Source of the DNA: Dipetalonema caudispina
Lineage: Eukaryota > Nematoda > Chromadorea > Rhabditida > Onchocercidae
DNA length: 64,000 nucleotides
Direction of reading: 5' to 3'
Assembly: GCA_013365325.1 (NCBI GenBank)
Contig: JABVXV010000065.1
Coordinates: forward strand, 62,001 to 126,000
A program made the translations under genes and the position numbers. This document shows positions 2,888-35,400 of the stretch, piece after piece. Position 1 is the first letter of the stretch. Each line of letters begins with the position of its first letter. Below the pieces are notes generated by a model, which was given only the letters and a program-made list of their open reading frames with translations, was not told the DNA's origin and did no database searches.

Positions 2888-5800
2888 ATGGTTGGTCGTT
2901 CAACATTACGTAATCGACATCATGCTAATCGACCTTGCGCTTCTGTTACGCCATCTACGCCGAGCAATCTTGTACGGGTTGACGATAGAAAAAGGTATGA
3001 ATTATTTACATTTAATTTAGAAATGAAAGGATAATTTTGAATTTATGAAGAATTCTACTAGAGTGGATACATATTGTTAGATAATATTAAAAGATTTCTA
3101 AAGGTCATATTAATAAATTAAAGTTTGCAAAAGTTAAGATGATATGAATTAACAGAAGATTTTGCTAGATATGTCTTATTTTGATAATGAAAGCTAAATA
3201 GAAGCTAATATGTAGCACTAGTTAATCACAGAGTACTCTTTAATAATATATGTTGTAATAAAAAAAGATATTTAGGTAAATGATAACTGAAAAGATACGT
3301 ATAGAAAATAATAAAATAACAAGATAATAGAATGATATTTTCTCTATTATAAAAATTTTTTGAAATAAGAAATAGTATAGTTGGAATTTGATTTACAATT
3401 AATAAGTAAATGAAGTATGGAATGAATTTTTACAATTTATTTATCATAAAGTTTTTCATATTTTTCAATATCATTCGCTTCATTCATTTAATAATGATAA
3501 TAGTGTAAATTTTTATCTATTTAAATATAATTTTAAAAAAAAAAAATGAAAAAGAAGAAGATATGGAATTGATTTATAGGAATGAAGAATATGGTAGAAT
3601 AATTGCACAAATTCATCCAATTTGGCCAGAAATGCCTCAAGGACAAGGTGAATTATTCTTCGAATGCACATTATTCCTTTATTCCGTATTAGCACTCTTC
3701 TTGCAATATCTCAATTTGTATAAGACAATGTGGTGGTTACCAAAATCATATTGGCATTATTCATTGGTAATTTTTCACAAATATTTTGATTATTTATTTG
3801 ATTTATTCCCTGATAATCGATTAAGCTTATCGTTGATTGCTACATGTATATGTATATATATAAGTCATTGTGAAACAGAACACAAACAATTTGAGCATGT
3901 TGCTAATAAGTTAATCATTTTTTTTTTTTTAATTTATTTATTTTAGAAATTTCATTTAATTAATCCATATTTGCTATCATGTGTTGGTCTTTTACTTGGT
4001 ATACGGGTAACAAAATGTTTTTGGAAAACGGTAAGTGGAGAAAAATTTGGTTGTTTCTTTTTTTTTTTTTTTTTTTTTTTCTTTATCTTATTTTAATTAT
4101 TTGTGAAGGAAAAATAATTGAAGCTAAAAAATTTTTTGTAAATTAAATTTAATAAAAACCTTTAAATAGATAACCGAATTAGCAACAAATGCCAGACAAG
4201 ATGCATCAAAAGCTCATTGCTTATTATGGGATATTATTGAATGGGCAGCCGTTAAAACACCAATGTTTACGATGGTTGCAACATCATTTCTTTTTAGTTT
4301 TACACGTGTTTATTTTGATTTTCCATTCAAATCATTACTCTATTTTGGGCATCCGTAAGTTTGCTATTAAAATTTTTTTTTTCAAAAAACATAGTGAAAA
4401 TAATTAACAATAGAAGATAGGGAAGGATAATGAAAAAAGGAAGTAGCAAATAAATGAAATAATAAGTAAGAGTAAAAATTTTTCAATAGCAAGAGAATTT
4501 TAATTTTCATAAATGAGCATTAGACGAAAGAGGATATATTTTATCATATAATATTTATTAAAAATCCTTCTTAAGAGTTTACATGAGATATTTTCTTTTT
4601 ATTCTAGTTAGAAATGTAAGTTACATCGTGAAATCCATGGAAAGAAGAATTTAAGAAAGACTGAGTGAGTATTTACGCAATAAACAATTATAATTTTAAA
4701 TTTTCGTTGTTTTTTTTCATCGTCCTTGATATCAGCTAATTTAATTCTGATTATAATTTGCAGTTTACTGTTTAAGAAAAATTAATTTTTAGGATTCTTT
4801 TCTTTTTATACTTATTCCATGGTAACGTATCATATAAAATACGCTGTTATGCTACAAAGTTATGGTTTGTTCTTAATGGAAAATCACTATCGGAAATATC
4901 CAAGATAACTACTATGTATCGCGGTATTATGCATCCTCCTACGCTTATTGACGTTGATAGTGTTGTGCATATGTGTAGCACTAATCCATGTATGTAATGG
5001 TTTTTTGTTTTCTTATAAATTACTGATCTACTTGGAAAAAATCTTTTTTTTTTTTTTTTTTTTTTAATAACTGAAGAACATATATGATTTTCAGTACAAA
5101 TACGTGAAGAAGTTTCGGTTTTAATGAGAGATTTTAGCCTACGAATTAAACATTGCTTTTTTTCTGGTCTAACAACGGCATATCTTTCAATTTTTGTTCC
5201 ATGTGTATTTACACCTGTAAGTTTTCATTTTCATTTCCAGTTTTTTTTTTTAAATTATGGATACATACTAATCTGATTTTTTACAAGATAGTTTAATACC
5301 GAAAACACGTTTTTAAAAATAGATGGATAATATTTCCACATGAAAGTATAGATTGTAACGAAAAGACAAACCTTTTAATGTAAAAGTAACTATTATAATT
5401 ATAACTGACAATAGATTTGCTTTCGTTTTTTTATTTCTCAATAACCTTTGGAATTTTTCAACCTGAAATTTGCAATTAAAAGGAATTTTGAATTGGAAAA
5501 TTTTCAGCAACGATCACCATCCGGCTTGCCACAACTAATATACATTGACATTTTATGGGTTTCGGAACTATTTTGTATCGTATTTTTAACATCATTTTCA
5601 CTTTATGCAACCTATCTGCTACCATTACAATACTGTGATTTGATACATCGTTGTGCGGCACATCTTGGAAAATGGGAGCGGTTGGATCGGTTAACGATAG
5701 CTACAATTGGTAGTAATGGTGGTAGTAGTAATTGTTGTTATAATAGTACTAGTAGTAGTAGTGGCAGTAGTTGTAGTAGTAGTAGTAGTAGTGGTAGTAG

Positions 5801-7404
5801 CAGTAGTAACAGTAGTAGTTGCATTGGTGCTATTGGTGGAGGTGATGGTAGTTCGACACAAACAACGAATTCTGCCGCAATAAATACTGCATATTCAGAG
5901 TAAGTATGTAGTTTATTATTTTTTCTATGCTATTGAATAAGTTTAAGAAAATTAACTAATATCCAATCAATAAGTAGGATTGAATAGAATAATTTAAGAG
6001 CATTTCTACTATCAGAAGATTCGTTGTACTAAATGATTGGATAGTGTAATTCAGTTAACTTTTATTAATTTTCAAATTTCCAACGATTCGTTATAAGCTG
6101 TAAGTAAAGCTGTTTATTCTTTTTTTTTATTTTATGAAAATAAAATTTAATTTAAGTACATTGAGGAAACTTTTGAAAAAGTAGGAGTAAATTATTACTT
6201 TTTTTTTTTTTTTTTTTGCCTTGAACAATGAATTCTTCAAGATTAATGTTTGCAGTTGGTCCGAGCATGATGGCCTTTATACAGATGGTTCGATTGTTCG
6301 TCATCAAGGACAACTGTACAAAGCTGTTGCTAATATTGGTACATTAGGTGTCGCTGCGGAACCCGGAGATTCAGATCATTCTCGTTTTTATGTGAGCTTA
6401 CTTTATTATTTAAAGAAAAAAAAAAAAGAAAAAATTGATTTGAAATAAATATTAATATGATTCCTTCTGTGGAAAAACAATTTAGGGGTGTTCGTAAGAT
6501 GTAATGCCGTAGATAGAGGCGGAAAACTTTTATCGTAGAAACTCCACTTAACTTTTGGCCAAATCGCAACCAACGGTGATTGAATATTTAAATCATTAAC
6601 AAATGAGTGTTAGAAACGATGCTTTTTAATATCTCCGATATCATAAAGCTTTTCGAGATATTGTTGCCGAACCATATATAGAATGCAATTATCCTACTAC
6701 CAATTGATTAGCTATATGGGTTGAAATGCAGAAGTATTCAGTTTGTTATATGTTTTTATATTCAGCGAATTGGTGGTGATCCGGTTACTTTGATCAGTAC
6801 TATGGCAATTTTTCAAGTTGTTTTAATTGCTACTCAATTTTGGATGTTGATATTAACAACAGATTGGCAACATATTGTTACGCTCGTACTACTTATATTT
6901 GCTAATTATCTCTTACTAGCAAAGGTTACTTTTTAAAAAAACTAATTTTTTTATCCGGTTGAAAATTGTTTTTTTGTGCAGCTACTGTAAGGTTCAAATA
7001 GTATCATTTCGGTGGTATCATCATAATTGTTCAGCTATTCTCTGCGGTATTTTTCCTCATGATAGCTGGATTTGATGATATGTGGACTTTTAAGAAGTAG
7101 TTGTAATTAACGATATAATATTATTATCAAACTATTCTGTTCACTTCACCTTTAACAGCCATTATTTGTGTAAATGCGATGTAAAATATGTTTTACTCAC
7201 TTAAATTACAATTAAGTTTTGGATTAAGGATTCCCGTAAATTACATTTCATGTTGACTACCAGCTGCTTATTAGAATTGCTTCCGATTTTGCTTATTTAA
7301 CTAGAAATTTTCAGACATTTAAAGATCGTGTAATTATTGGGAGGATATATAAGCCTTCTCCTGAAGATTTGCTATTAATTAAGCAGATGCAACAATATGA
7401 ATAA
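2888..7404 (+). CDS. TMEM39: TMEM39 family ER membrane protein
   Basis: Ten exons: 2888-2994, 3580-3766, 3947-4030, 4170-4354, 4793-4989, 5095-5216, 5508-5899, 6256-6391, 6766-6924 and 7315-7404. They total 1659 nt and encode 552 aa, with phases consistent throughout. Hallmarks of human TMEM39A/B are easy to see: an early Q-G-x-L-F-E-x-x-F-x-Y then N-L-Y-K-T-x-W-W block (about residues 55-90), Y-C-D-L-I-H-R-C-A-A-H-L-G-K-W (about 336-350), W-S-E-H-D-G, V-R-H-Q-G-Q-L-Y-K-A, and near the C-terminus K-D-R-V-I-I-G-R. Several hydrophobic membrane segments are present. TMEM39 proteins sit in the ER membrane; in C. elegans the family is known to support collagen secretion through COPII/TRAPP contacts, which would matter for cuticle. 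Exon 7 carries a Ser/Gly-rich insert (about residues 362-410) not found in vertebrates. The start is the first ATG of an exon that splices in phase to exon 2. The exact N-terminus is less certain than the rest. Confidence 0.9.
5710..5870 (+). repeat. Coding AGT/GGT triplet repeat (Ser/Gly-rich insert in TMEM39)
   Basis: A purine-T triplet array (AGT, GGT, with some TGT/TGC) inside TMEM39 exon 7 encodes a Ser-rich, Gly/Asn/Cys-containing linker just after the conserved H-L-G-K-W-E-R block. The triplet purity suggests expansion by replication slippage. It would place a flexible loop between two conserved regions. Confidence 0.85.
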
Positions 7405-8354
7405 AGAAAAATGTTCGCTGTGATTTGCTTCAAATGGTTATTTATAAATGTGATGATATCTTTCTTGTTGATTGCACTTAATGATTTGTGATGGTAACAT
7501 GTGATGATTTTTACGAATTTAAATATTTTTAATTTATGCAAATATGCTTTAGGATTAAAAATGAAAAGGAAAATTGAATTTGGAAGAAAAGGTTATGAAG
7601 TACTCCAGGAATTTTCATTCCATATTTGCTAAATTTTTTATATCTAAACTGTTAATATCATTATGGGTTTCTTAAAAAATATTTTCAATTTATGAAGGGA
7701 TAAATAAATTGTTCATATTTACAATGTACTTTGAGTGAAATTTATGAATTTGAAAATATTTTTCGTATTTACTACTATTTGAACGGGCATTTATTCTCAT
7801 TTATATGTGACATCAAAGTCATCAACGATTGTGGATCAATATTTTTGTGAAAAATGTTAGCAATCAACTATAAATATTAAATTGATAAGATTTGAAAAAT
7901 AGATTTTGAGATCATAACATCATCTATCATCGTTGGTTTCATCCTGCCCTTCGTTATGAAGGATAACTATTATGAACTATGCTAATCAAGTTTTCTTGAA
8001 ATTGATTTGACTACCAAACTGTTCGTATAATACAATCAATAATTATTAGATTTTTTCTAATAGTAACTGAAGTTTGAAAATAAATTATCAAGTTAAGTAA
8101 GCAAATGATTTCTGAATAAGTAAAGAGTTAATGACGGGGGAAAATTTGAAAGTGAAATATAGCATTACGGTATGTGGAAATTTCCGAATGGATATTTGGC
8201 GATATTTTAGTGATAACTTCATACGAGAATACACAGATATAGCATTGGAATGGTCATTTTCCGGTGTAATTTTCCGTAAAAGGGGGTTTTTTTTTTTTCA
8301 TAGAAGAAAAAAAAGAGAAATGAATTTTTTAATGTGTTTTCAGATTTCTGAAAT
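7405..8354. other. Intergenic region between TMEM39 and POT1
   Basis: About 950 bp between two same-strand genes. I see no coding-like frame; a 75-aa frame at 8131-8358 overlaps the POT1 5' end and is lysine/phenylalanine-rich by chance. A strong splice acceptor lies just before the POT1 ATG (separate entry). The spacing is at the upper limit for a nematode operon. Confidence 0.6.
8337..8343 (+). promoter_or_regulatory. Splice acceptor 11 nt upstream of POT1 ATG (candidate spliced-leader site)
   Basis: TTTTCAG ends at 8343 and the POT1 start codon is at 8355, with no in-frame ATG between. In nematodes a consensus acceptor this close to the start usually marks spliced-leader trans-splicing. 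A cis-spliced 5' UTR intron is the alternative. Confidence 0.5.
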
Positions 8355-11300
8355 ATGAAAGAGTATCAATATGTTACGCTTGCAGAGCTGGATGATTTAT
8401 CACATATAGCTAATGAAAATTTGAAGGTAAATTTACTACAATAACGTAGAAAATTTTCAACGATATTTAAAAGCGAAATTAGTTGAATGATGAATAATAA
8501 AGTAGTAGTGGTAATGAAATGATTACTTATAATTTCCTTACTAATTCGTTAACAATCAAAAAAAAAAAAGTAAGGATACAAATTTTTAAATCTTTATGGA
8601 TTTTTTTAGGGCAAAATTTATTATTCTATTCAAAATAATCAAGAATTGTTTCGTTTATTTACATAATGGATTAATAATTGATCATATCAAAGCCTTTTAT
8701 ATGTTCATGTAAAATAGGATAAAGTTATATGATAAAGAAACAAAATTAATTGTTCATTAAAATATATTATCATCATATATATATATGTTTAGATGTATGT
8801 TGTATTTGATAACAGAATTATCATTTAAATGAAAATCTTAATCACATTTCAATTTATATGACGAATAATAGAATTATTTATTACAGGTTAACATATATGC
8901 ATTTATAGCTGATATAAAGATACGTTCACGACCGATAGATGTATTAGAAGATGGTATGATTGTTTTTATATTTTTACCATTTATTTTGAAATATTTAAAC
9001 GAAATTATAATAATTGTTGTTTACGATAAATTATTTGTCACAAAGGTAGTGGAATAATTTTATTATTGGAAATGAATTAAGAATTTCAATCCATTTAGCC
9101 TCTGTTATGACGCAATTGGAATTACGTGATGGTAGCTCAAATAGCAATACAACGTGTATCATTTATAGTCAATCATTGGAAAGTTTTTCGGATCAAATAC
9201 AAAATGGTCAAATCATTCGAATGCATCGTGCTAAAGTACTCTTTTTTCAGTAATTTATTCATTTCACACATTTTATGACTTGATACTATTTTGCTTTATT
9301 TTCATTTTTAGTGTCCTAATTCATTATTTCTCTATGATTTGGTTTTAACCATTTTTTGAGGCAGACGTGGTGGAATTTCGCGGCACTCTTATCTTATATT
9401 TTCAATTTTTTGAATTAAATAGTGTGGTAACTGGTATCATTAACATCTGGAAATTATCATTTCTGCCAGTTGTATCATTATTAGATAGATATGTTGCAGT
9501 AAATGAATGGTATTGCATGAGGTTTTTGATATGAGTCAACTCTCATTAGTGAATTATAGCATTGATTCGTTTATCGTTGCTTATTATCTCTGAATCGTTT
9601 TATTCAGATCAAAAAATTGACAGAGCGGAAGTTGTTTCTTTATGGAAAGCTTAAAATAGCTGGTTTTGCTGTTCTTCTCTTCAGTGGTCAACTTGATGAT
9701 GGTTTTACTCCTATATATCAGTCATCAGCAAAGTTTACTCTAGTATCAGATTATAAAGAGAGGGTTGGTTTCATTATTTTAAAATACTGCAAGGTTGGAG
9801 ACCATTTTAAATTAATCTTTGATAACAAGGATATGAATTTGAATAATATTTTGAATTGCATTTAAGATCTATCAGTCAAATTATTTACGGTTAAAAGTAG
9901 CAACACAGGAGGATAGCGAAATAGCGATGCTTTTGTTTCAGATAAATTTATTACGCACGTTATTCGTAAGGGATCAGCCGATGGTATTAGAAGATCCACC
10001 TGCACTTTCAGATGATCCTGGAAATTTGGATGGTCAACTTGTTGCTACAACATCGGTATCACCCATGAACCAAAAAGTAGCATATGCTAATGAGGAGGGA
10101 GTGTATGATATAATCAGAAATGCGAATGTTCATCGCTTGAATGAATTCGTTCTTGGTGGTTACAGTGATATTACCGTACAAGTAAATTTTGTTGATGATT
10201 TTAATGTTTGAAAACAACGTTTACATCTTACCCATTTAATTTTTCCTTAAATTTCCGGAAAAAAAAACATAGAGAAATAAAAATATTGAATGATTCTTTC
10301 CTATCTTTTATTGGAATTGTGAACTCGTCGAAGCACAACATTTTTGATGATACAAATATTTTAGACTTTAATGATAAGTTATTTGTATTTTTAGACAATA
10401 GCTCTATTTGTTAGTGATCGAAATAATGTGATATTGCGCTGTTGGGATACCACTTCACCACCGAGGTATTTCCGTTAATAATGAATTTTATACAAAAATA
10501 TGAAGACTATTTAGACATAGATACATAATGTGTACTAATAGTAAAAGAATTAATCTTTTGCTTAAAGAATCACTCGAATGGTTTAGTTGGTGAAATTATT
10601 CATTCAAAAGTTATTTTGTCATCAGATTATGAAGTTAAAATTTGTCCGCTTTAAATCGTGCATTATTCAGTCACTTTTGCATACTATTCATATAGCATGC
10701 TATTCTTAGTTAAATTGTTATAATTAAAATGATTAAAGGAAAATATTTGTTCTTGATGCTGACTTTATTCACGAAGTTATATGTCGAGATGAGAAGCTCG
10801 AAATGACAGCAGCAAACTATTGGTGTGATGTTGTGTTATATGAAGAACATGCTAATTTTGCTCGAAATAATGTAAAGGTATTAATTTAAAGTATAAATGT
10901 TTACTTATTTTAAATTTAAATGATTAAATAGGATGATGTAAGTGAAATGATTTTGTCTTGAGTTATTGGTCGATACGTTTTTTTTTTTTTCATTACAAAT
11001 GACTAACTTGTACTACAAAACTTTCGATTTGGTTGGGTAGTCATAAACGTTTGTTCTTAAGTTTATTTGAAAGAACTTTGTTTATGAGCAGTAATCATTA
11101 ACGCTGTGCTTACAGTATTCTTATGGCGACAATTTCCGTCTAGTTTTTTTTTATGAAAATTAAAATTTTGGCAAGTAATTTCCGACTTTTTTGTTGTTTT
11201 ATATGAAATAATTGAACCAAATGTTTTTACAGTGTGGTGATATTCTGCTACTTACTAACACGCACTTATATCACTCAAAGAATGGTGTAACCCTAACAAT

Positions 11301-14300
11301 GCATGGTGATGGTCAACGTTACAACAGATCAATTATCATTTTGGATGATAACAATGAATTAAAACTTGACCTTTTACGGTTAGTTACTTGCCTATTTTCA
11401 AATTTAAAGATTTATTTCACAGATGTAATGTATCGGAACTTTTTCAGCACTTCAATATTTTTATTAGTGAAATTAGGATTATTAGATCTTCTACAACAGT
11501 AATCGATTTTATGAAGAATTTTTCTCCTTCTTTTTAAGCGATGTTCAAAAAAAGACTTTTTGTTTAAAATGTTAAGCCGTACTTTTACTTAGCGAACAGC
11601 GTGGTAAACAATTAGCAGAAGAGTTTCTCTTTCACATGTGGTAGAAAATTCGATTTTTAGGAATATTGATGAATTCAATGCTAACAAGGTTTCGCTTCTC
11701 GTAGATATGGAAGCTGACATTGAAAATAGAAGAAATGTCGAAGATGTACAACAATATCCATATACAGACATACTGGTGGCTGTTTCTCTGTATCGGATTT
11801 TTTTTTATACTTCAGATATTTTGTAATAATTAGATGCATTTTTCAATTGATTTTTGAAGTTATCAAATCATTATAGGTTAGGTTTTGGTTTCGCAACTTG
11901 AAAATTTATTTCAATCATGGCATATTTAATTGTTGCCTGATTAATGATATTAGGTTTTTTTTTCTTCAAGTGAAAGAATAAATGGATAAGTTGATGGATT
12001 CTGATGTCATGTTAAGTTAATCGATAAACTTATTGGATCAGATTTTTTAATGATTTCTCAACCGAGATGACAGGGATTTCTGAGAAGTGTACAACGGGGA
12101 ATTGAAACTTGTACTATTTCTTCAATAAATTCAAAACTGAATATTCAGTTAAGATATTTGGGAAACCGATAAAAATTCTTTTATTATTATTATTGTTACA
12201 ATTAATTATTTAAAAACAAAAATTTTTTAGCAAATCGCTCCAGCGCAATCACTTGACGAAACATTGGAGAATCAAGAGAGAGAATTATGGAAATGTTGGG
12301 CTGGAGAACGGATGCGACATATGCACGCCATACAATTGGCATGGATTCATATGTATGCCTGGAAGAAAAAACATCAGCCAAATGGAGAACTTCAACGATC
12401 ATTCAATTTAGCAAGAATGGCAGTGCAATTCATTGTCCGACAAGTTCTTGAACGCCTCTTTGTTTATAATAAAGGCAAGTTATTTTTTGTTTTAGTAATA
12501 GCTAAATATTTTCCTCTATTTCTATGTGAATAAAAATTAGCAGTGTTTCGTTGTGTTGAAGAGTATGTGAAGTGAACCTTGTTATCGTAGATGATAGTGA
12601 TGCCGCTTGAAATATTAAAGTTGAAATAGCACACTGTATATCTATAATAATTGGTTGGAATAATTAAGCTTTGTAGTGTATCAAATCTTTGTTAATCATA
12701 ATTTTGAGCAATTATCGCAGATGAAACTAGATCACAAATGGATAATAATCATGTTTGTATTAAGACGTCGAAATAAAGAAATAATTGAAATATTTAAAGA
12801 AAGGCGAAGGAGTGAAGCGATCCATTAATTTTAATTAAAAAACTTTTCTATTTTGAATTTTATTTATTCATTAAAATGATGAGTTACCGAAGTGTGGAAA
12901 ACTATGGTGTCTTTCGGTTGTAACATATTTAATTTCCGGATATGGCTATTAAGCAATTTCTAGGACATAGTTCAGATTATTGGTTACCAAACAATTCATT
13001 GATCTAACTTTCGATAGCTTGAAACTGTCATTGGTATTATGTAGTTGCATTGAAGAAATATAATATCTGATTTTTCATGAAACGAAATTGAATTGTTAAT
13101 TGAAATTTTTTGAAGATCTATTTGCAAATCTAACGAAGCTATTACGTCGACAACGAAATATTTTATTTACGAATTTCTTATTGACATATATGGAGGGAGC
13201 ATATGGGGATGCAGTAACTTCGAGGCTAACAAACGTAAGTGACTTATGTGATTCATGCTAAAAATATAAGCATTTCGAAAATATTTCTAAATTATTTATT
13301 CATTTTTCAACACTTAGAGTTATCTTGCAGTCAGAATTTGTGCTACTCTTCTTCCCTATTTCTATCCGTATGATTCCTGCTATGGCGATAAATATATCAT
13401 AGTATAAAATAAAGTCACAAAATTATGTCATTTATTTTATACACATTATGTATAGTGATCAATATTTTTCAACTTTTATTTATTTTATTCTTTATGTGAA
13501 ATATTTGAGGATGATAAACAATCGAATGAGAAGTGTAAACTTGTGAATGTTCCCAAAATGAGAAAAGTTGGAAGCTCAAAAGATGATGCTGGATGGAATT
13601 TGCTGTGCAGTTTGTTGCCAGGAACAGTTCTGAAATTATCAGGGTTTGGTTTGCTTGTTTTTACTTTTTATATAACTAAAAAATATTTTCAGCGTACTTT
13701 CTCATTAATCAAATTAATGTGGGAATTTAGCGAAATAATTCAATGCTTTATATCATTAGACTGCTTTAAAAAGCTTGTATATGATTATGTTCATTATGAA
13801 GTTGTGAGCAGTATCTAAGATTTATTATATTGAATAATCATCTATAACTTTTTATCGTACTAACACTCGTTTGTCCTTTTTATACTTTTTTTTTTTTCAA
13901 AATATTAGACTGATGTGCTTCATATCTTTTGTTAGCATTCATCTTAGGGCCTAGTGTTAGTATATTTTACTATATAGCTGCAAGTAATATTACTATTCAT
14001 CATTCTACCCATTTCGATAATACCTAATCTAACGCACCCAAGAAAAGCTAACAACTACATAATGTTATTGACTTCAATGATACAAAGAAGCATTTGATTA
14101 TCTTTATTGTTTTTAATTACAATTAATATTACCACTTGTTAATATTTTAGCTGGAAAGTTAACTTTTCGTATAATGCAAATACGAAAATATTTTTTGCAT
14201 TACTCTGCAATAAATGCAATCTGTGGTGTACTGTATCAGCTAGGAACTTCGATATGACTCCGTTATGTCCCGTTTGCTTCAAACGTACGATATTCTTGTT

Positions 14301-15983
14301 TGATTTTGTTAATTTTTGATATTTTTTAAATTATATACCAAAGAATTTCGATCGCATGGTTACTGTAATTTAAAGGTGTTACTTTTTAATGATTATTATC
14401 GTATATTCGTTTAATGTTTTTTTTTTTTTTTTTTTTTTTTTTTATATATAGCCGACTTACTAGTAAATAAATAAGTTCACATACTTTCTCTTAATTTTAA
14501 ATATATGTTTCAGGCGAAATTACTGACTCTCATTTATTCCTTCAGTGCTACTTCCTTTTCAACGGAATACCAAATGAAGCGGTATAATTTTGCAAATTTC
14601 AATTGGAGAAAAAAAAATTTCATTGTTTATCCATTGTTCTTAAAAAAAAAAAAAAGAATGAATGAATCACGAGCTTATTAAGGTGATGATAGCTTTGTTG
14701 AAAAAGTTGATATGATGATTAAATGCAAACAGATTATTATCATTTTTTTCCGAGTCATTATCCATGTACTGTTCTCTTCCATATCATTTATCAATTTATT
14801 GATTCAAACTGGAATCACCATTTTCCAATATATATTTTGAAATGAAGAAAGAAAAAAAAATTATGTTGATTTTTTTTCGGGTAGAGAAAATGTTTACTTT
14901 ATGAGAAATTTTAAATTAGCTTCAAGAATAATCATATCTTTCCTAATTCAATAGACAAGTAAAATGAAATAATTTAAAATGAAATCTGTACAACATTCGC
15001 TATTATACTCATTCATTTTCAGGAAGCTGGAAGTAAAAAATATTACTTTCTGTTCCCGATTCAACTATTGGTAAATAATTAAAGATTCAAAGAAATTTTT
15101 TATCATAATGAAATCTTCGTGATTCTAATTATCATTTTTTTGAAATTCGCTTGAAGTGTTTTTTTTTTCCCAACTACTATTGAGGATTTTACAGGAATCA
15201 ATAAAAATACATGCGAATAAATTTCATAATCAATATGGATATCATTGCTCATTTTACAAATTTTGATATTTTTTGCAACAGAAAATTTTGCAGTTCAAGA
15301 TAACAATCATTTTAGGCTTTTTTTCTTGTTGATGTACCCGAAAATGCACGAGAAGCTGCTCAAAATTACAGAAGAGGCATTCCTGATAACGAACGGGAAG
15401 CTTTGGCTGCATCAATTCAAGTTAGTGCTATGTTTCGCCGTTCGAAACTGCTTTCATTGAAAGAGAAGTAGCTGAAAAAAAAGTCCACTTATTTAATGAA
15501 ATTTCAAATAAATAGTTTTTTAATCATCAGGTCTCAGTAATCGTCTTATATCAAAATTTTGTTTGCATTTCATTTCCGTGCAAATCCATCAAATGAAGGA
15601 TAAAATTCGACAGGATTATTTTTTTCTCTCGTCGTATTAGTTGAATAAATAGCTTAAACATAGGAGTCAGAAAACAAGTATTCCTAAAAAAAGAAAAAAC
15701 GCGGACGTATTTTCCAACTGCCTCTCTATGTTTGGCTTCTCGATGCAAATTTTCTTTTTAAGATGAATCCAATTATGAAATCTTCCAAATATTGCTTATG
15801 AAAAGTACTTTCGAAGACATTCATTGATTTCTTTTTTAATTTGAACAACAAAAAATTTGATTAATTTTTCAGAAACAAATGTTGTCTAAATATTCATTCA
15901 TTTTGAACGAAGTTATCATTCGGAAGATTAAAGCAAATGTCGCAATTGTTGAAGTTGGGAAGCTTACGTTTGCAGATCGATGA
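8355..15983 (+). CDS. POT1: Protection of telomeres protein POT1 (OB1 + OB2 + zinc-ribbon C-terminal region)
   Basis: Eighteen exons: 8355-8426, 8887-8953, 9099-9235, 9608-9763, 9867-10181, 10395-10465, 10739-10877, 11233-11378, 11661-11775, 12231-12474, 13116-13234, 13318-13401, 13510-13643, 14151-14284, 14514-14581, 15023-15070, 15316-15420 and 15873-15983. Total 2265 nt, 754 aa; human POT1 is 634 aa. Residues 1-150 form the telomeric OB1 fold: V-N-I-Y-A-F near the start, then T-T-C-I-I-Y-S, then N-G-Q-I-I-R-M-H-R-A-K, then G-F-A-V-L-L-F-S-G. These follow the human VNVYGVV / LTCLLFSG / NGDIVRFHRLKI / GFASLTFEG order. Residues 225-370 form OB2 (D-I-T-V-Q, then W-D-T-T-S-P-P, F-A-R-N-N-V-K-C-G-D, L-T-M-H-G-D-G-Q-R-Y-N-R). 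Residues 370-600 are helical and unrecognised. Residues 600-754 hold C619-x2-C622 and C639-x2-C642, then a strand-rich OB-like end. POT1 binds the single-stranded telomere overhang. Exons 1-8 are secure; 12-14 are the least certain. Confidence 0.88.
12475..13115 (+). other. GC-AG intron within POT1
   Basis: The exon 10 / exon 11 junction uses a GC donor in the classical strong context AAAG|GCAAGT and an AG acceptor after TTTTTTGA. Only this junction keeps phase (1 into 2) and an open frame across both exons; the nearest GT (12479-12480) breaks the frame. GC-AG introns are a known small minority in nematodes. Confidence 0.7.
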
Positions 15984-32496: not shown

Positions 32497-35400
32497 ATGG
32501 CAGAAACTAATGCGAAATGGTTGGATGCATCGTATTATCAGAACATACCGAATTCGGAAGGTAAGGATGGCAAATGCACAGCAAATTAAATTTGCTGATC
32601 TTTTCAATCTAAGATTTATTGAAAAGTTTGAACTTGGGAACTTTAGGAATAAAAAATTGAATTTGAACTTGTCTCTGCTAATCCTTTTTAAGTCTGTTTC
32701 TGAAATTATCTCTTTTAAAAATACTGGTAAGATAGTGATAACAAAATGAGGATAACGACTGCTTAGATCATACCTGATAACCCATTATGTTTTTCCATCA
32801 TCATTTATTATGTCCATGGGTTAGTGTAAAATCTGTTTGTACTTTATGCCTTGCAAATCTGACATTATACTGTTAACTAAAGCGCTTCCGGATAAATAAA
32901 CGATTTAGATAACGCAAATTCAAGAAACATTTTGTAATATATATAGTTTTTGAATCAACAATTCGTATTTATCAATAAATTATAGTAAATTGGGCGCAGC
33001 TAGCACAAAAATGGATGCAAATGCGAGATGCCGGTGAAGTTCCTCCGGTAACATCGAATGATTCTATACCGCCACCGCCAAGCAAGGAGCTACCACCATC
33101 GCATCCGCCACCGGCACCCGATGGAATACCGGTAAATGGGTCTTTTTTGCCACCTGGTGGGTATTTGCCTACTATGCCTGTTGGTACGTTTTCGAATTGT
33201 ATTGTTTACTTCAGTAAATTTAAAAACTTTAGTGAAATCGTGCGCATTTATGATACTGCCTGGATATTTGCTGTTGCTAGTCTTACACAGCCTAATTTTA
33301 TCTATGAAATTTTCAGATGCAAATTTTGCTACACCGTCGCCTTGTTGGATACCACCCTTACCACCAAGTAATTTTGGACCTCCAGCTGGTGGCGCATTTC
33401 CTCCTTTTATGCCACCAGTTCCGCCATGGATGGGCGTCGCACCGGTACCACCTGGCCCGTTTCCACCGGCGCCTCCGTACGGTGATGCAAAGCTAAGTGT
33501 TGACGAGGAGGAAGGGGGTGAAGCAAGTTTTTTCGTATCATTTTCGATTTACGTTATTCTTAATGCATTTTGTTTTACTTTACCTAACCTGTTCAGATTT
33601 TCCAGTTGTATTTCATGTGTGTAGAAGAGATATCATTTTGTTGAGTAAGTCAAGCAGTAGTTTAAGGGGCAGGATGAATATTAATCTATAGTTGTAGGTC
33701 AGACTATAAGCCAAGTCTCATTTTATGCGGATAAGCCGGGTATCATTAGATTTTAAATGATTATATTGCAGTACTCGCATTATTACAAAGAATGGGATGA
33801 GAAGCAGAAAAGTGGTCGACGTGACAATGATTCAGATGATTCGGAAACAGTTCCAGAAGGTGCTATGGCTCATTGGCTTAAGCCTGGTCCTGGTTGGGCA
33901 CCACCACCAAATTGGTATCACCCGTCACGTCGGGATTCTCCTTCAAATTCTCATTCTATGCCTTTCATCGGTTAGTTTTGGCAGTTGAACCTATTCCTTG
34001 CAAGTAACGGTAGCGTTGGCGTAGCAATATCATATATATATTCTGACGGCATTAAAATCATGCTTTTCAGATCAACAAACACGAAAAGCTTTACCAGCAT
34101 GGATCCGTGAAGGTTTAGAAAAAGCTGAGCAAGAAAGGCAAAAGAAACAGACGAAAGAAGCTAAATTACGAGCTGCTGAAGAGGCAGTAAAAGCTCGTCG
34201 TGCTGCTAAAGGATTGGGAAAATTTGTCAGTTCATGCTTTTTGCTTATTATATAAATGTATTAGTTTGATGTTTATATTAGAAAACAATATTTATCATTT
34301 TATTTTACTTAATGGTGCGAGTTTTAGGATTCTGATAGTAGTGAAGATGAGAATGGAACTGAAGACTCAAAAGAAAGGACTAAACTTGATGAAGAGCCAG
34401 TATTCCTCAAGAAAAAGAGATTGGAAAAGCAGCAGGAGCAACCGATCAAGGATACAACGGAAATCGATTACCGAACCGAGGAAGAAACACGAGAAGATGC
34501 AGTAAGTATCTAGATATTTTTGCGCGCTATCCTTCTGCTGTCTTCAGAAAGAGAGTTAGGTGGAAAGGTAGAAGGAAGAAAATGTCGATTTCATTGTACC
34601 GCGTCTCACACTTGTTGCACTGCTGAATGTTTTATATATCTTATTCCTTTTACTGTTCAACAGAAGAGTTACTATTTCGTGAATTGTTATGTCTGTTGTG
34701 ATTTACACAATCATAAAGGTTAGTCACTTCAAGTTGGACATGTCTCAATTCGCGACATAGTATTCTTTTGTGAAACTTCCACAACAAAAGGTTCGAAACC
34801 CATTTTCTAGTCAGACTTTTTTTTTATTTGAAAACGTTAACTTAATGAGTTTTTGACGAATCAAAGGAAACAATACTTCATGATTTTCCATATGCCTTTA
34901 CTCAGCCATTCATGCTAACTTATTTGCAGCTTATGCTTTTGCGACGTTTCATGACTGAAATTTTGTTGGAAACAACAGATGATGAGTTGAACCGTATTGC
35001 TAGGGATCAAATCGAACTTGCTAAACGTTCTGGTACATATTTTTAATTTTAAAATTTAACGTTCAACAAATGGTACACGACCTCTTTTTTTGGCATTCGT
35101 CACTTGAAATTGTTCCTGCAATTTCTGCCCTTTTTGGTTTGAAAAGGCAGCAGTGATCTCAATAAAAAAATATCCCAGTTTCCAAGGTAACAGGTTATAT
35201 CATTCATGTTTTTAAAACTATCAGACAAGTCACTTCCGTCTTGTGACTTCTACATTTTAACGCCACAATATCGATTTTGAAAACGATCAATTAATCAAGT
35301 TGAATATATGTTTAGCCCAGCCAAAAGTTCTCGCCCAAAGCTCGGCTCTCGCCGCTTTGTGTACACTTGGTAAGCTTTTACTACATTTTTTGCAGCTTTT

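Follow-up and report, generated by a model that had tools for sequence, protein, structure and literature searches.

A putative multi-OB POT1 gene, and traces of a decayed paralogue, in the filarial nematode Dipetalonema caudispina

Can a nematode carry the OB domains of the telomere protein POT1 together in a single protein? The question is raised by a locus at positions 8355 to 15983 (forward strand) of a 64,000-nucleotide stretch of Dipetalonema caudispina contig JABVXV010000065.1 (positions 62,001 to 126,000), hereafter the window. In C. elegans, according to published descriptions, POT-1, POT-2, POT-3, and MRT-1 carry OB folds of the POT1 type that serve telomeric single strands, MRT-1 being included in the single-OB set by PMC10844300. 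Judged from its sequence, the window locus is very probably a real, intact-looking single POT1 gene of a filarial nematode, which we call paralogue A. Its product is not of the Caenorhabditis single-OB type, since two OB domains score over the cut-off; set against those published descriptions, the C. elegans proteins have one OB each and the window protein more than one.

The gene model and its OB domains

The coding span comprises 17 exons with 701 codons and a stop; all 16 exon junctions are in phase, and the model has no internal stops. The initial annotation had placed the ATG and the TGA exactly and had joined its exons in phase, although its 18 exons and 754 amino acids (aa) give way here to 17 and 701. 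The exon 5 acceptor (9942) and the separate last exon were placed from the sequences of relatives. Fifteen introns are GT-AG; the intron that follows exon 10 is of the GC-AG kind and has its donor at window 12475; the public Elaeophora model (P0003) has additional residues at this position, a surplus that the GC-AG donor may explain.

8355..15983, +, POT1 paralogue A coding span, 17 exons, 701 aa (model and relatives)
8355..8426, +, exon 1
8887..8953, +, exon 2
9099..9235, +, exon 3
9608..9763, +, exon 4
9942..10181, +, exon 5 (acceptor from relatives)
10395..10465, +, exon 6
10739..10877, +, exon 7
11233..11378, +, exon 8
11661..11775, +, exon 9
12231..12474, +, exon 10 (GC-AG intron next, AAG/gcaagt)
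13116..13234, +, exon 11
13510..13643, +, exon 12
14151..14284, +, exon 13 (both CxxC pairs)
14514..14581, +, exon 14
15023..15070, +, exon 15
15316..15420, +, exon 16
15873..15983, +, exon 17, terminal, TGA (from relatives)
8400..9956, +, OB1 coding span, exons 1-5 (Pfam POT1)
10137..11682, +, OB2 coding span, exons 5-9 (Pfam POT1PC)

Both OB domains proposed in tandem at the outset exceed their Pfam cut-offs: OB1 (POT1, PF02765) at aa 16-149 with 49.1 bits (cut-off 29, E 6e-13), and OB2 (POT1PC, PF16686) at aa 210-350 with 90.7 bits (cut-off 27.2, E 1e-25). Seven human OB2 positions are identical in all nine aligned rows; on the putative binding of telomeric single strands, residue conservation is what the analysis covers.

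Overlapping searches with the protein (12), a profile (15), and a paralogue B query (9) gave 20 relatives in total, several of which are entered in the databases as "Protection of telomeres protein 1"; protein searches catch only relatives that share short words, so a species missing from these lists is uninformative. By BLASTP, the window protein is 76% identical to Cercopithifilaria P0001 (718 columns), 72% to Dirofilaria P0002 (704), 69% to Elaeophora P0003 (710), 62% to P0004 (709), and 46% to Thelazia P0009 (737), with shorter matches to Acanthocheilonema viteae (77%, 377 columns) and Litomosoides (73%, 380). The annotated filarial POT1 models P0001, P0002, and P0003 (69-76% identity) represent the same gene, collinear and differing from the window gene by small gene-model differences. 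When we asked whether the alignment was ungapped within about five residues of each of the 16 junctions, this was so at 14 junctions for P0001, 16 for P0002, 12 for P0003, 15 for P0004, and 13 for P0009, and at 12 and 10 for the paralogue B models P0012 and P0018. Other worms thus have full-length relatives, 46-76% identical, that run collinear with the window protein, which excludes a chance joining of exons. The order of OB1, OB2, and four-cysteine tail is common to P0001, P0002, P0004, and P0009.

Two adjacent genes might nevertheless have been joined on paper, one for an OB1-OB2 protein that would stop near exon 9 and the other for a cysteine protein from exons 10-17. Public models from A. 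viteae (P0013, 387 aa) and Litomosoides (P0014, 380 aa) end shortly past OB2, and the introns here (229-641 bases) are compatible in size with two genes, as closer spacing is possible for trans-spliced nematode genes. Public models, all of them predictions, nonetheless span both parts, four of them for A (P0001-P0004) and two for B (P0012, P0018), and P0002 is gap-free at every junction, so that such a joining appears very improbable. The preferred reading, a single putative transcript across all domains, rests on these predicted, collinear gene models.

The C-terminal tail

Past OB2 come a predicted helical region and then a tail that bears two CxxC pairs, 16 residues apart. The CxxC-x16-CxxC pattern is present in seven of eight compared rows; in the eighth, P0003, a skipped stretch takes away the first cysteine. 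The four cysteines form a putative zinc motif.

12240..13608, +, predicted helical region, about aa 385-535 (low confidence; Dirofilaria model numbering transferred by eye)
13627..15971, +, OB3-like tail, about aa 542-698 (Dirofilaria numbering less 3)
14206..14217, +, C566-x2-C569 (aa 566-569)
14266..14277, +, C586-x2-C589 (aa 586-589)

An AlphaFold model, which replaced an earlier one (14 rows, mean predicted local distance difference test score 45.1) together with the searches made from it, predicts the tail as an OB-like barrel and places helices between OB2 and the tail. A VIA structural alignment of this model to 8soj_D extends to chain residue 632. On this modelling the tail is likely to be an OB region, and it might correspond to OB3; its link to human OB3 has no sequence profile support and rests on a model of middling quality. 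The first interpretation, one protein with OB1, OB2, and a zinc-bearing C-terminal OB region, fares well for the domain order, shared with four relatives, and for the cysteine pairs, and less well for the fold, of which only an OB-like barrel is predicted.

Human POT1 resembles the window protein in its tandem OB1 and OB2, its two C-terminal CxxC pairs, and its length (634 versus 701 aa). In human POT1, however, the CxxC pairs are 117 residues apart versus 16 in the worm, which leaves no room for the vertebrate-type HJRL domain between them, and the worm protein, unlike the human one, is predicted to form helices ahead of its tail. The tail is thus not "as in vertebrate POT1", as had been supposed. 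The human HJRL insert shares zinc with OB3, as stated in PMC5394241.

Several observations weigh against a full-length, telomere-binding POT1 with an OB3 tail. The gene model is a prediction from sequence, and several public models of relatives are short or fused. Only 12 of 27 chosen human OB1/OB2 positions, presumed DNA-contact residues among them, are identical in the window protein; human F31, Y36, D42, Q94, and H266 are not conserved, and Y89 falls in a gap. Model confidence is uneven in the tail (block means 38-82, the lowest, 38-44, at the second CxxC pair) and 32-62 in the helical region. The VIA list barely probes residues past 354, and the root-mean-square deviation to 8soj_D reflects loosely superposed domains. 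Against the PDB, the tail profile gave a sole match, to an alginate lyase (E 2.1). In comparisons with five human POT1C pieces, 12 to 206 of 500 shuffles equalled or bettered the hidden Markov model score, and 5 to 22 of 100 did so with hhalign. Finally, the assembly has no long TTAGGC array and no run of six TTAGGC units; three-unit TTAGGC gave five overlapping matches at three places.

Alternatively, the tail may be a zinc ribbon unrelated to OB3, the protein then being OB1-OB2 plus another domain. Human OB3 is not significantly matched by sequence, and the tail alone has a weak Pfam match to zf-RVT (E 0.0011, 20 bits versus a cut-off of 27.5, in two of six rows). Yet the predicted strand order agrees with the OB3 topology given in PMC5394241, the location after OB2 is the expected one, worm CNKCNLW lies opposite human CPKCHLL in the highest-scoring hhalign block, albeit nonsignificantly, and the VIA alignment reaches residue 632 of 8soj_D. 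We consider an unrelated ribbon unlikely and favor an OB3-like tail.

Paralogue B and its decay in this genome

The relatives point to two POT1 paralogues in these worms, newly recognized here: A, beside a TMEM39-type gene, and B, beside a gene taken for spartin-like, with a diverged OB1. A maximum-likelihood tree of 19 rows splits them 13 A to 6 B with support 100/100, although the tree tool warned that long Thelazia branches are possibly misplaced. The B group contains O. volvulus, O. ochengi, O. flexuosa, Setaria, Brugia pahangi, and Thelazia; three of these, namely Setaria, Thelazia, and O. ochengi, are represented by one A and one B protein each. Onchocerca volvulus P0012 (B), 31% identical to the window protein by BLASTP, and Setaria P0018 share OB2, the four cysteines, and the tail with A. 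The OB1 of P0012 falls below the cut-off (17.8 bits versus 29), that of P0018 was not found by Pfam, and the positions of human H82/R83 are changed in B, unlike A. In Brugia and Thelazia, B is annotated as fused to the Senescence-domain gene that we take for spartin-like. In Ascaris P0020, OB2 is accompanied by a weak OB1 (14.6 bits versus 29) and by the last portion of the tail. In an OB1-OB2 tree including human and Ascaris, A has support 90/99 and B 100/99; the human branch exceeds three changes and the Ascaris-human join has 67/49, and on this tree the duplication may or may not predate Ascaris.

In the D. caudispina assembly (78 Mb, 764 contigs), pieces of B lie at C256:49256-51269 (L020:7257-9270), adjoining the spartin-like gene (matches at L020:2761-5719). 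They consist of OB1 parts with in-frame stops and a frame change, followed by a piece running into the start of OB2 (about L020:8666), 535 bases with a single weak match (P0012 residues 199-223, E 0.58), and then the last 23 residues of P0017. The OB2 core, helical part, and cysteines were not found in this 10-kb stretch, which contains no N; used as a control, those B proteins did retrieve the OB2 core from this genome's A locus. Judged from these remains, B is a decayed relic here, and A is the only POT1 found. Queries with A, B, and Ascaris proteins found no third locus, though such an exon-by-exon search may miss diverged copies. A six-frame scan of the genome with Pfam POT1 gave zero matches, controls included; introns interrupt the gene. 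The POT1PC family likewise yielded no third locus apart from a weak match (E 0.005) on contig C8, which was dropped, as the frames around it resemble APC2 by eye and POT1 queries give no match there.

Ancestry, proposed function, and surroundings

Human POT1 and ciliate TEBP-alpha are multi-OB proteins. By parsimony on these two, we infer that the single-OB Caenorhabditis layout is derived, an argument drawn from human and ciliate proteins rather than from any Caenorhabditis sequence; Oxytricha TEBP-alpha is very distant from the window protein. It could also be that the full-length layout is a secondary clade III fusion of separate OB proteins and the Caenorhabditis layout the older one. The worm sequences compared here are filarial and related ones, outside Caenorhabditis and clade I, and OB1 is below the cut-off in both B (P0012, 17.8 of 29 bits) and Ascaris. 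The domain order is nevertheless that of human POT1 and ciliate TEBP-alpha, and separate proteins are less likely to have come together again in that order than one protein is to have split; we give the fusion very little credence and retain the derived single-OB layout. The initial statement that this lineage keeps the ancestral full-length form was too simple: OB-N was not found here, and POT1 underwent a duplication in the lineage that the statement leaves out of account. A fourth, N-terminal OB (OB-N) before OB1 is said of most metazoan POT1s in PMC9119445; the gene model here begins at OB1 and one open frame lying between it and the end of the upstream gene at 7404 has no Pfam match, although a distant 5' exon is possible.

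For 69 nematode species, PMC10844300 reports single-strand telomere-binding domains in clade III, with orthology for MRT-1 only, and suggests that POT-1/2/3 homologues are absent from the clade. Given the window gene and its relatives, that statement is incomplete. Among the open-licence titles listed, none was devoted to filarial POT1. The POT1 family itself is already known; what is distinctive is the C terminus and the history of duplication and loss.

By this account, OB1 and OB2 would jointly bind the single-stranded TTAGGC overhang, capping it against repair and over-extension. Human POT1 OB3 docks TPP1; by analogy, and less certainly, the worm tail might be an OB3 with a compact zinc ribbon that docks a partner protein through a TPP1-like or TEBP-like link. 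The filarial gene would then be the unsplit form relative to the C. elegans one-domain proteins, and the second, diverged POT1 (B) of related worms would have decayed here, leaving A. Less probable is a more general form, in which A stays intact throughout clade III whereas B may be lost, as has happened here; the compact tail ribbon would then represent OB3 in a state lacking the HJRL insert. A clade III POT1 with OB1, OB2, and tail offers a nematode reference for the origin of the C. elegans one-domain proteins, which makes the origin of the Caenorhabditis layout testable, and the natural loss of B in one species is a setting in which to ask what B does.

The start methionine is the same in 8 of 13 database A proteins; P0004 starts nine residues earlier, P0003 has another first exon, P0010 has no start, and in P0006 and P0009 the model is fused with the neighbouring upstream gene. 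That gene, of TMEM39 type, lies directly upstream (window 2888-7404, +) and was identified by eye against P0009, which matches Pfam Tmp39 at E 7.6e-90. Public models of Onchocerca ochengi and Thelazia fuse it to POT1, and the two genes may possibly form an operon. Just before the ATG lies one further feature, possibly a spliced leader trans-splice acceptor or a 5' untranslated region acceptor:

8335..8343, +, acceptor-like TGTTTTCAG, ending 11 bases before the ATG (sequence)

Elsewhere in the assembly, the Pfam telomerase RNA-binding domain matches just over the cut-off at C33:141857-141964, with one more match below it, and a SNM1/DRMBL scan, as a route to MRT-1, gave one match over the cut-off on C9 and two below. 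Within the window, a long (TTA)n-like simple repeat at 1690-1960 is the source of several artificial reading frames, and overlapping glycine/proline-rich open frames on both strands at 33090-33624 are the only two of at least 150 aa within 17000-64000.
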